Origin: Candidatus Saccharimonadota bacterium | Lineage (GTDB): Bacteria > Patescibacteriota > Saccharimonadia > Saccharimonadales > Saccharimonadaceae | Reading direction: 5' to 3' | Assembly (NCBI GenBank): GCA_017652765.1 | Contig: JAGCAJ010000021.1 | Span: 1-64,000 of the forward strand | Length of the DNA: 64,000 bases | Shown here: piece after piece, positions 59,194-61,852 of the stretch | Layout: each line of letters begins with the position of its first letter | Numbering within the stretch: position 1 is the first letter of the stretch | The notes under the pieces: generated by a model | Seen by the model: the letters and a program-made list of their open reading frames with translations, nothing else | The model's database searches: none | Told to the model about the DNA's origin: nothing | Made by a program: the position numbers and the translations under genes

Positions 59194-59706
59194 ATGTTTG
59201 AGATTGAGAGTAAAAAACCAGAAGAAATCACGATAATTACTAAGAAAACGACCATTACTTTTAATGTCGCACAATTTACAATTGATGCCGGACTAGAGGT
59301 GGGGAAGATTCATGGGCCGGGCGAATTCGAAATTGGCGATGCTACGATTAGGGGTATTCCTGTACCCGTGGCGGGATCTTCGGCTGAAGATACAGCTGAT
59401 GGCAAAGCTGATGGCAAGAGGCCAGAACTATCTGGTGAGACTATTTATGATGTAGAGGTTGGGGGGATACATGTAGGGATTATTGGTGATATTGATAGGG
59501 GGCTAGATGATCTTGGCGTGTCAGATATTTTATGTACATCTTCTGTACGTGCAGTAAGGGAAATTGAGCCAAAGATGGTAATCGCGACGGGGAATATCGA
59601 CGGTATGGTAACAGAGCTGAAACTGACTGCTAGGACAGAAAAGAAGCTCAAAGTGAAAAACGCAGACAGTCTACCAGCAACGCTTGAAGTGGTGGCTCTA
59701 AATTAA
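59194..59706 (+). CDS. Metallo-beta-lactamase-fold protein without metal ligands
   Basis: A 170-residue protein resembling the C-terminal part of MBL-fold hydrolases of the UlaG-like type: HGPGEFEIGDATIRGIPVP corresponds to the family GPGEYE motif. Neither the HxHxDH motif nor other metal ligands are present, so enzymatic activity is unlikely. It has a clear AAGGAGG ribosome-binding site. Possibly a structural or binding role. Neighbours are a winged-helix protein and a site-2 protease. Confidence 0.65.
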   Translation: MFEIESKKPEEITIITKKTTITFNVAQFTIDAGLEVGKIHGPGEFEIGDATIRGIPVPVAGSSAEDTADGKADGKRPELSGETIYDVEVGGIHVGIIGDIDRGLDDLGVSDILCTSSVRAVREIEPKMVIATGNIDGMVTELKLTARTEKKLKVKNADSLPATLEVVALN

Positions 59707-60350
59707 TGAGAATGAATTTTGGAATGATAGTGGTGGTACTAGGATTAATCCTGGTGTCGATGATTTTGCATGAGCTAGCGCACGGAGTGGTAGCATATAT
59801 GTTGGGGGATGATACAGCTAAAAAACAGGGGAGGCTGTCACTTAATCCATTAAAACATCTAGATCCGATTATTTCGATTGCTTTACCGCTCCTAATGTTT
59901 ATATCCGGAGGGCCAATTTTTGGAGGAGCGAAACCGGTGCCAATAAACACTAGAAACCTAAAAGGTGGAGCATGGGGAATGGCGCTAGTGGCAATAGCGG
60001 GACCGATTACAAATTTCTTGTTGGCGCTAATAGGATTTGTGATTTTTTATCATACGGGACTTCTCTCGGAAAATAATTTTATAGGGTCTGTATGTGCGAA
60101 TTTTGTAACGATTAATTTGGGATTTTTTGTGTTCAATATCTTGCCAATACCGCCGTTAGATGGGTCTAGGGTATTATATGCGATTTCTCCAGATGGAGTA
60201 AGAAATGTGCTTGAAAAATTAGAAAATACCGTAGGAATATGGCTAGTTTTTGGACTAATTTTAATTTTTTCGGCATTTTTGACAAAATTGATGAGTGGGG
60301 CGATTACAGGAATTATTCAATTCTTCTTAATGCTGGTAGGCGCTACCTAG
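59706..60350 (+). CDS. Site-2 protease family membrane metalloprotease (M50)
   Basis: A 214-residue protein with about five or six hydrophobic helices. The active-site motif HELAHG (about residues 22-27) in the first helix is the HExxH zinc site, and NILPIPPLDGSRVL (about 148-161) is the second motif with the third zinc ligand Asp. It lacks a PDZ domain, so it is a compact Rip/SpoIVFB-like protease. These cut within membrane-spanning segments, often of anti-sigma factors. It overlaps the previous gene by one base. Confidence 0.92.
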   Translation: MRMNFGMIVVVLGLILVSMILHELAHGVVAYMLGDDTAKKQGRLSLNPLKHLDPIISIALPLLMFISGGPIFGGAKPVPINTRNLKGGAWGMALVAIAGPITNFLLALIGFVIFYHTGLLSENNFIGSVCANFVTINLGFFVFNILPIPPLDGSRVLYAISPDGVRNVLEKLENTVGIWLVFGLILIFSAFLTKLMSGAITGIIQFFLMLVGAT

Positions 60351-60355
60351 ACTCT

Positions 60356-60368
60356 CTTGTGGTATAAT
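60356..60368 (+). promoter_or_regulatory. CTTGTGGTATAAT promoter of the structured leader
   Basis: Exact recurring 13-mer, ending about six bases before the first paired base of the candidate structured RNA at 60375. There is no -35 box at the usual distance. Confidence 0.7.
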
Positions 60369-60373
60369 AGAAT

Positions 60374-60510
60374 TAGCCCTGATAGCCACATGATTTTCCT
60401 GAATAATCATGAACAGGGATTTCGCGACGGCACTTCCGTGGAAGTACGTATAAGATTTTACCCACCTTGCATATATCGCAGGGAAACAAAAGAGCTATCG
60501 GGGCCATAAG
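60374..60510 (+). ncRNA. Candidate structured RNA or riboswitch-like leader
   Basis: About 135 bases between a strong promoter word and the NUDIX-RNase H gene. GCCCTGATAGC (60375-60385) pairs with GCTATCGGGGC (60494-60504) to close the domain. Inside are a perfect hairpin CATGATT/AATCATG (60389-60395 with 60405-60411) and ACTTCC/GGAAGT. CCCTG at 60376 can instead pair with CAGGG at 60414, giving two exclusive folds. The closing stem ends a few bases before the AAGGATGG ribosome-binding site. No known riboswitch class was recognised. Confidence 0.5.
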
Positions 60511-60518
60511 GATGGGCA

Positions 60519-61409
60519 ATGAAGCAACGAATCAGAGTAGTAGGTATTGTAAAGGATAAGGGGGGAGGAATTTTGCTACTCAAACGACCCCAGAGTAGGG
60601 CTGAGGAAGTTCCGGCCTGGGAGATTCTAACGGGGAAGATTCATTTTGGCGAGCAACCAGAAGAAGCGTTGGCTCGCTCTTTTTATGAGTATTTGGGGGT
60701 GGAAGTATCTAGTATTAAACTCAGAGACGCGGTAACGTTTGTAGGGCTATCTGGGAGCTCCCAGATGGAAAATTTGTATATTGTGTTTGAGGTGGTTTTG
60801 CCGGATGGGGTAAAATTAACGCCGATGGATAGATATACGGCGTTTAAGTACCTCAAAAAAACGGAGCTAACGACGGTAAGGCTAGAGGACGCTACTATGT
60901 CAGTAATAGATATCGTGAGTGGGCATAGGAGAGAAGCTATTAATATGAAGCCGACAGACGCAATAGATGACCCGAGGGGAGCGGCGAATGGCGCTACGGT
61001 GTATGTTGATGGTGGAAGTAGAGGAAATCCTGGGCCAGCGGCGATTGGGTATTATATCGTAGGGCAAGATGGGCGTGTAATAAAGAGAGGGGGAGAATTT
61101 ATTGGATTTGCAACGTCGCGTGTTGCAGAATATTATGCGATGAAAGAGGGGATGGAACAGGCAATTGAACTAGGGCTAAAGCGAGTAAGGTTTGTGGGTG
61201 ATAATCTGATGATGATAAATCAGCTAAAGGGGGTTTATCAGGTAAAAAGCTTAGATCTTTTGCCGATTTATAATGATGTGCAAAATTTACTCAAGAATTT
61301 TGATGCGGTGGCATTTTCCCACGTAAAGAGAAGCCAGAATATGGAAGCGGATAGGGAAGCGGGCAAGGCACTAGAGGGGCATTTTAACCGCAAAAAGATG
61401 AAAATGTGA
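60519..61409 (+). CDS. NUDIX-like domain fused to RNase H
   Basis: A 296-residue two-domain protein. The first half (about 1-145) has a NUDIX fold, with the box region GKIHFGEQPEEALARSFYEY; the canonical REUXEE is replaced by RSFYEY, so metal-binding Glu residues are lost. The second half (about 150-296) is an RNase H type I domain with the four acidic residues in VYVDGGSRGNPGP, AEYYAMKEG, FVGDNLMMINQL and NMEADREAGKAL. RNase H cleaves RNA in RNA-DNA hybrids. The dead NUDIX part may act as a nucleotide sensor or binding module. It is expressed behind a structured leader and just upstream of rnpB. Confidence 0.87.
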   Translation: MKQRIRVVGIVKDKGGGILLLKRPQSRAEEVPAWEILTGKIHFGEQPEEALARSFYEYLGVEVSSIKLRDAVTFVGLSGSSQMENLYIVFEVVLPDGVKLTPMDRYTAFKYLKKTELTTVRLEDATMSVIDIVSGHRREAINMKPTDAIDDPRGAANGATVYVDGGSRGNPGPAAIGYYIVGQDGRVIKRGGEFIGFATSRVAEYYAMKEGMEQAIELGLKRVRFVGDNLMMINQLKGVYQVKSLDLLPIYNDVQNLLKNFDAVAFSHVKRSQNMEADREAGKALEGHFNRKKMKM

Positions 61410-61415: not shown

Positions 61416-61420
61416 AGGGG

Positions 61421-61765
61421 GAGCTCGTAATGGCAACCGCTGGATTTATTCAGAGGAAAGTCCGGGCAGTATAGAGCACGGTAGTCGCTAACGGCGACCG
61501 TCCGAAAGGATAGGGAAAGTACCACAGAAACTTAAACTACCAGGGGCTCCAAGTCCTTGGAAAAGGTGAAAAGAGTGGGGTAAGAGCCCACAGTAGAGTA
61601 TAGTGATATATTCTAGAGGCAAACCCTACCGACTGCAAGGAGTACTAGATACCCCTGCTCGGGGATGTACGATCACCGCTTGAACCTTAGAGCAATCTAA
61701 GGTCTAGATAGATGGTTGCCCGCCTGTTTGCAGGTGACAGAACCCGGCTTAATACGAGCGCTTGC
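61421..61765 (+). ncRNA. rnpB: RNase P RNA (bacterial type)
   Basis: About 345 bases. The conserved blocks are present: GAGGAAAGTCCGGGC near the start (P4 left strand and CR-I), GGGTAAGAGCCCAC (CR-II type), CGAAAGGATAGGGAAAGT, and ACAGAACCCGGCTTA at the end (P4 right strand). The ends GAGCTCGTA and TACGAGCG pair to form P1. It processes the 5' ends of precursor tRNAs. The short spacer between its -10 box and P1 gives a natural 5' end. Ends are estimated to within a few bases. Confidence 0.96.
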
Positions 61766-61769
61766 ACTG

Positions 61770-61852
61770 TGGGACTTTCTTTCGGAAAGAAAGTCCCAAC
61801 GAAAGAAACCTAGTATAAAAAAGAACTTACGCACATGTCGTAAGTTCTTTTT
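61770..61852. terminator. Tandem hairpins after rnpB, shared with rpmB
   Basis: First hairpin GGGACTTTCTTTC/GAAAGAAAGTCCC (61770-61797) has no T run. The second, AAAAAAGAACTTACG/CGTAAGTTCTTTTT (61817-61852), has T runs on both strands and can terminate rnpB and the convergent rpmB operon. Confidence 0.8.

Follow-up and report, generated by a model that had tools for sequence, protein, structure and literature searches.

A short, conserved RNA upstream of a NUDIX-RNase H gene in Saccharibacteria is very probably a divergent 6S RNA

Introduction

Does the structured RNA that precedes a NUDIX-RNase H gene of a Candidatus Saccharimonadota bacterium act on that gene, or is it the product of a gene of its own? 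A sequence-only reading of the locus preferred a riboswitch or attenuator, recognised no known RNA class and named an independent small RNA as the alternative. We have analysed the window (the whole 64,000-nt stretch of DNA in which the RNA lies) together with related genomes. Our analyses favour the alternative: the RNA is conserved, its downstream context varies, and it is homologous to 6S RNA, a bacterial RNA that imitates an open promoter to hold RNA polymerase. We consider it very likely that the locus is a gene in its own right, encoding a divergent and very short 6S RNA (SsrS). Within the open-access literature that was covered, we found no report of a 6S RNA in Saccharibacteria, TM7, Patescibacteria or CPR.

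Results

The RNA is preceded by a promoter of the form TG-G-TATAAT, with its -10 hexamer at 60363-60368 (Table 1). Among 111 same-genus RNAs with enough upstream sequence, the hexamer reads TATAAT in 102 and TACAAT in 4, and the TGn extension is present in 100. The closing stem begins 7 nt after the end of the -10 element in 68 same-genus RNAs and 8 nt after it in 24; in the window the distance is 7 nt, so that the transcript would start with the stem itself. No match to a -35 element was found upstream of the RNA, and a generic promoter scan did not report this promoter. What had been called a strong promoter is therefore confirmed as a conserved extended -10 element, but not as a strong one. 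At the other end, a T-run lies near the closing stem in only 26 of the 111 genus RNAs, and read-through into the next gene is thus likely in the window. Three loci (L185, L188 and L189) have a terminator-like hairpin and T-run directly behind the RNA. In L160, L163, L165, L156 and others, a T-run directly continues the 3′ strand of the closing stem; from this sequence arrangement, the stem could serve there as an intrinsic terminator as well.

Table 1. Positions in the window of the RNA, its parts, its promoter and its neighbouring genes
Feature	Positions	Strand	Basis or remark
Extended -10 promoter TGGTATAAT	60360..60368	+	TATAAT/TACAAT in 106/111 same-genus RNAs, TGn in 100/111
6S-like RNA, closing stem to closing stem, 129 nt	60376..60504	+	predicted start ~60375
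Closing stem, 5′ strand GCCCUGAUAGC	60376..60386	+	partner 60494-60504; compensatory changes
Closing stem, 3′ strand GCUAUCGGGGC	60494..60504	+	partner 60376-60386
Template hairpin, 7 bp, loop UUCCUGAAU, alternative to P2	60389..60411	+	pair probabilities, permuted-partner test
Predicted pRNA template	60391..60404	+	suggested by alignment with the 6S model and the E. coli start U44
P2 (downstream helix), 5′ strand	60395..60401	+	pairs with 60479-60486
P2, 3′ strand	60479..60486	+	pairs with 60395-60401
Apical arm	60416..60463	+	GGG 60416-60418 / CCC 60461-60463 invariant; stem 60432-60436 / 60441-60445 covaries
3′ (release-type) hairpin CCUUGC/GCAGGG, P2 competitor	60465..60483	+	pair probabilities, permuted-partner test
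NUDIX + RNase H-like gene, downstream neighbour	60519..61409	+	candidate only for regulation by the RNA
M50 peptidase gene, upstream, most constant neighbour	59706..60350	+	neighbour survey

The predicted fold of the window RNA is far more stable than that of shuffled sequences (-44.5 vs -28.4 kcal/mol, sd 3.6; z -4.5; 0/200 shuffles as stable), and the reverse strand folds less significantly (z -2.4). The closed domain described earlier is well supported: it is bounded by an 11-bp stem that shows compensatory variation in 112 relatives. Each of the 11 closing pairs is formed in 90 to 102 of the 103 distinct arm pairs found in the 112 genus RNAs, at least three standard pair types occur at every position, and all 11 pairs form in 68/112 RNAs, in tests that take the best 3′ register per sequence and so favour a sequence's own pairing. 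Strong covariation was also seen in the apical stem, where 84 cells changed on both sides compared with 26 in shuffles. The GGG and CCC blocks of the apical arm are invariant in 42/42 RNAs, and the template block is nearly invariant across relatives. RNAalifold recovered the apical arm alone from the order-wide alignment, since the outer helices align poorly. The length between the stem ends is 123-145 nt in the genus and reaches ~150 nt in relatives outside it.

A DNA-similarity search detected the RNA in 34/60 relatives, namely in 34 of the 36 same-genus genomes (counting its own) and in none of the other 24. The exact core pattern occurs in at least 116 stretches; among the 80 contigs listed, 78 are from Saccharibacteria, one is from the TM7 strain Ca. 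Nanosyncoccus alces and one from an 'uncultured bacterium'. The covariation and conservation in relatives on which the earlier reading had staked its case are thus both present. As for sampling, sets A2 and A3 comprise 36 and 42 of ~140 distinct RNAs, respectively, and the helix permutation tests used 39 diverse RNAs. L171 is absent from A2 and present in A3, L160 and L170 are absent (missed by the pattern), and L178, probably a false positive (E 0.019 with the genus model R1 described below), was excluded.

Three rival helices were found inside the domain: the template hairpin (60389-60395/60405-60411), P2 (60395-60401/60479-60486) and the 3′ hairpin (60465-60470/60478-60483). In the template hairpin, the block 60395-60401 finds its partner locally; in P2, its partner is 60479-60486. 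Similarly, 60478-60483 can take part in P2 or in the 3′ hairpin, but not in both. The internal perfect hairpin of the sequence-only reading is recovered, with CAUGAUU (60389-60395) and AAUCAUG (60405-60411) forming 7 bp at pair probabilities of 0.68-0.77. Its mutually exclusive pairings stood in a different form: these three helices do exclude one another, but the proposed choice of CCCTG between CAGGG and CGGGG did not hold up. The CGGGG partner belongs to the closing stem, and pairing of CCCTG (60377-60381) with CAGGG (60414-60418) has a predicted probability of 0.0 and scores 4.32 of 5 with own vs 4.29 with permuted partners, 233/2000 permutations being as good.

When own and permuted partners were compared across the 39 diverse RNAs, P2, the template hairpin and the 3′ hairpin each paired better with their own partners (0/2000 permutations), although these tests ignore relatedness and their significance is therefore overstated. 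Column counts for P2 on the order-wide MAFFT alignment were not above those of shuffles. Given the poor alignment of the outer helices, P2 was assessed instead by duplex energy, which came to -12.3 kcal/mol for own and -9.0 kcal/mol for permuted partners (39 RNAs, 0/2000). Compensation in P2 is seen as UUUUCC/GGGAAAA in the genus and as UGAUUAUCUG/CAGGUUAAUCA and UAAUCUG/CAGGUUG in other families. Column support for the template hairpin is weaker than that for the closing stem, because its fixed-column table has only 13 distinct arm combinations, several of which are disrupted or shifted in register. For the window RNA, the prediction favours the hairpin form (-43.5 kcal/mol) over the better P2 form (-36.3 kcal/mol) by ~7 kcal/mol. 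The free RNA is accordingly predicted to adopt the hairpin form, with a P2 probability of 0.0, and the open bubble is not its predicted ground state. Pair probabilities favour the hairpin in 109/112 genus RNAs and 15/29 others, and P2 in the remaining 3 and 14.

The identity of the RNA was approached with Rfam's 6S model, RF00013, which gave one weak full-length match in the window (15.2 bits, E 0.49; cut-off 46.4). Among the 60 relatives, it matched two genomes of the same order (39.5 bits, E 5.0e-7; 32.4 bits, E 2.7e-5) and none of the 36 same-genus genomes. One of these two, L031, clearly shares the gene order of the locus, with M50 peptidase followed by the RNA, a tRNA, RNase H, RNase P RNA and L20; in the window, an Rfam scan places RNase P RNA at 61420-61766. 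Since RF00013 found a match in only 5/14 control genomes, a miss by this model is not unusual. Two covariance models were built, R1 from 30 genus RNAs and R2 from 42 order-wide RNAs. R1 matched 32/148 order genomes at E 0.1 or better. The cmscan analysis covered 20/30 R1 loci first, with L176-L179 scanned separately; RF00013 matches fell on those of R1 in L164 (45.8 bits), L173, L163, L161 and L174, and RNase P RNA was near the RNA in 18/20 loci.

R2 matched 129/148 order genomes, once in each. RF00013 matched 11/148, none of them over the cut-off, L164 being the best relative. All 11 of these matches coincide with R2 matches; however, those loci belonged to the R2 training set, so the independent test is the phylum. 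Across 239 phylum genomes, R2 had matches in 53 and RF00013 in 22 (3 over the cut-off). Both models matched in 11 genomes, always at the same place, and this includes 9/9 outside the order; the other 11 RF00013 genomes are not among the R2 matches at E 0.01. When RF00013 loci themselves were searched, R2 matched 10/10, including three CPR RNAs over the Rfam cut-off, for which the rough E-values are 0.0005 (partial), 0.001 and 0.003. R2 did not reach E. coli ssrS, and none of the more distant 6S loci, beyond its own range, was matched by R1. The homology thus runs through a chain of intermediates, each link of which was tested.

The RNA has a closing stem, an apical arm and P2 with a predicted template, as 6S RNAs do; it occurs as one match per genome (129 genomes) and has its own promoter, which is conserved in the genus. 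It falls below the Rfam gathering cut-off (15.2 of 46.4 bits) and, at ~129 nt, below the usual length of ~160-200 nt. Our analyses show homology through the tested intermediates and, besides this, the helices, their covariation, the conserved promoter, the single copy and the independent context. The statement that no known class could be recognised is thereby superseded, as RF00013 is linked to the RNA by intermediates. By homology, the RNA counts as 6S despite failing the Rfam score, and should function like 6S.

Discussion

The gene context bears directly on whether the RNA is a cis-acting riboswitch or attenuator, in which two folds before a ribosome-binding site would control the NUDIX-RNase H gene. 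In the window, a single protein (60519-61409) carries the NUDIX and RNase H-like domains as a fusion. The M50 gene lies upstream in 29/30 genus and 31/33 other loci, and the RNase H part downstream in 29/30 and 27/33, in a survey in which contig ends truncate L016 and L020. The NUDIX-RNase H gene follows directly in 29/30 genus loci, the remaining one being cut by a contig end. In addition, the RNA ends 3 nt upstream of a ribosome-binding-like AAGGA (60508-60512) ahead of the ATG at 60519, as the sequence-only reading had noted, and the scarcity of T-runs makes read-through likely. These points fit cis control; however, only 14/33 non-genus loci have the NUDIX part downstream, and the other 19/33 retain the RNA with no NUDIX match. 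A tRNA gene stands directly behind the RNA in L031, in 9/20 R1 loci of one scan and in 7/12 loci of another, and L185, L188 and L189 have terminator-like hairpins of their own. Moreover, no fold of 60376-60504 or 60366-60510 reaches the ribosome-binding site, and 60505-60518 lies outside the folded domain. On gene context and 6S homology, we rejected the riboswitch or attenuator of the earlier reading, which now appears very improbable.

Somewhat less improbable, but still unlikely, is a 6S descendant with a changed function, such as binding of core polymerase as by Ms1, or binding of holoenzyme without pRNA release. In favour of this, 109/112 genus RNAs are predicted to take the hairpin rather than the open-promoter form when free, the RNA is unusually short, and PMC9130861 describes Ms1 as a structural relative of 6S that binds core polymerase. 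Nevertheless, P2 is maintained by compensatory change, the template block is nearly invariant, as would be expected for use as a template, and Rfam scans gave no Ms1 match. That the RNA is another housekeeping RNA in disguise, SRP RNA or tmRNA, is hardly conceivable, and both identities were rejected. SRP RNA was not found in G000 and relatives by RF00169 (0/12) or RF01854 (0/8), with positive controls, which would leave a place for it; but the window RNA has no SRP RNA match even at E 10, and tmRNA sits elsewhere (G000:C18:64959-65314), over its cut-off. Coincidence with 6S matches contradicts both. Ffh (TIGR00959) was over the cut-off in none of 10 genomes, again with positive controls, so that an SRP RNA need not exist.

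Returning to 6S RNA as the preferred identity, we can predict how the RNA might work. Transcription would begin from the extended -10 promoter. One fold, with closing stem, P2, open bubble and apical arm, would mimic an open promoter and occupy the holoenzyme of the housekeeping RNA polymerase. With an ample supply of nucleotides, the polymerase would copy the template block from about U60404 toward the 5′ end into a short pRNA of predicted sequence AUUCAGGAAAAUCA; this start comes from alignment with the 6S model and from the E. coli start, U44. Synthesis of pRNA would open P2 and free GCAGGG for the 3′ hairpin, and the RNA would be released. In the free RNA, the conserved template-block hairpin is predicted to compete with P2 and may gate binding. 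Polymerase binding, pRNA start, release and gating are all deduced here. We tentatively suggest a minimal self-gated 6S RNA, an idea with a real but lesser chance of being right, in which the free template would be locked in a hairpin and P2, the template hairpin and the release hairpin would form a three-way switch, with both binding and release of polymerase under conformational control. If true, it would add another design to those of E. coli and B. subtilis.

The RNA shares with the 6S RNA of E. coli (RF00013) a closing stem, P2, an apical arm and a 3′ hairpin made of bubble bases and the P2 3′ strand. This composition is that of gamma-proteobacterial 6S RNAs, and in E. coli the hairpin forms once pRNA synthesis opens P2 (PMC8876501). 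It differs in being ~129 nt rather than 183 nt long, in scoring below the Rfam cut-off and in having the extra conserved template-block hairpin that is predicted to dominate the free RNA. E. coli ssrS too stands before a protein gene, fau, and by analogy the window arrangement possibly resembles ssrS-fau. B. subtilis 6S-1 also has a 3′ bubble hairpin, already formed in its free RNA (PMC8876501); however, the central bubble collapse helix of 6S-1 was not identified in the window RNA, whose extra hairpin uses the 5′ and not the 3′ strand of P2. In the same source, a 5′-bubble (template-side) hairpin of 6S-1 is a weak prediction only, unconfirmed by probing. Actinobacterial Ms1 is likewise 6S-like, poorly conserved in sequence and found with the help of gene order (PMC9130861); in contrast to Ms1, which binds core polymerase, the window RNA has no Ms1 match in Rfam and is linked to RF00013 by intermediates. 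With ~160 nt given in PMC9130861 as among the shortest known 6S RNAs, the ~130-nt window RNA would be shorter than one of the shortest in print. Its length of ~129 nt and its template hairpin set it apart from known 6S RNAs.

By the Rfam cut-off, 6S RNA is found in 0/148 order genomes, and by R2 in 129/148. A large group of bacteria that are reduced and depend on hosts thus probably carries a global transcription regulator missing from its annotation. As a promoter mimic, the RNA comes near the minimum form, and its template hairpin is conserved, so that both the minimal needs of a 6S RNA and the gating of binding could be tested on one short transcript.

Two smaller observations concern the surroundings of this RNA. 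The SRP pathway may be absent in the order. In the window, an inverted repeat (GGGACTTTC...GAAAGTCCC, 61772-61799) follows the RNase P RNA, and in L016 a closely similar repeat immediately precedes the 6S promoter; the two are possibly a shared terminator or repeat.
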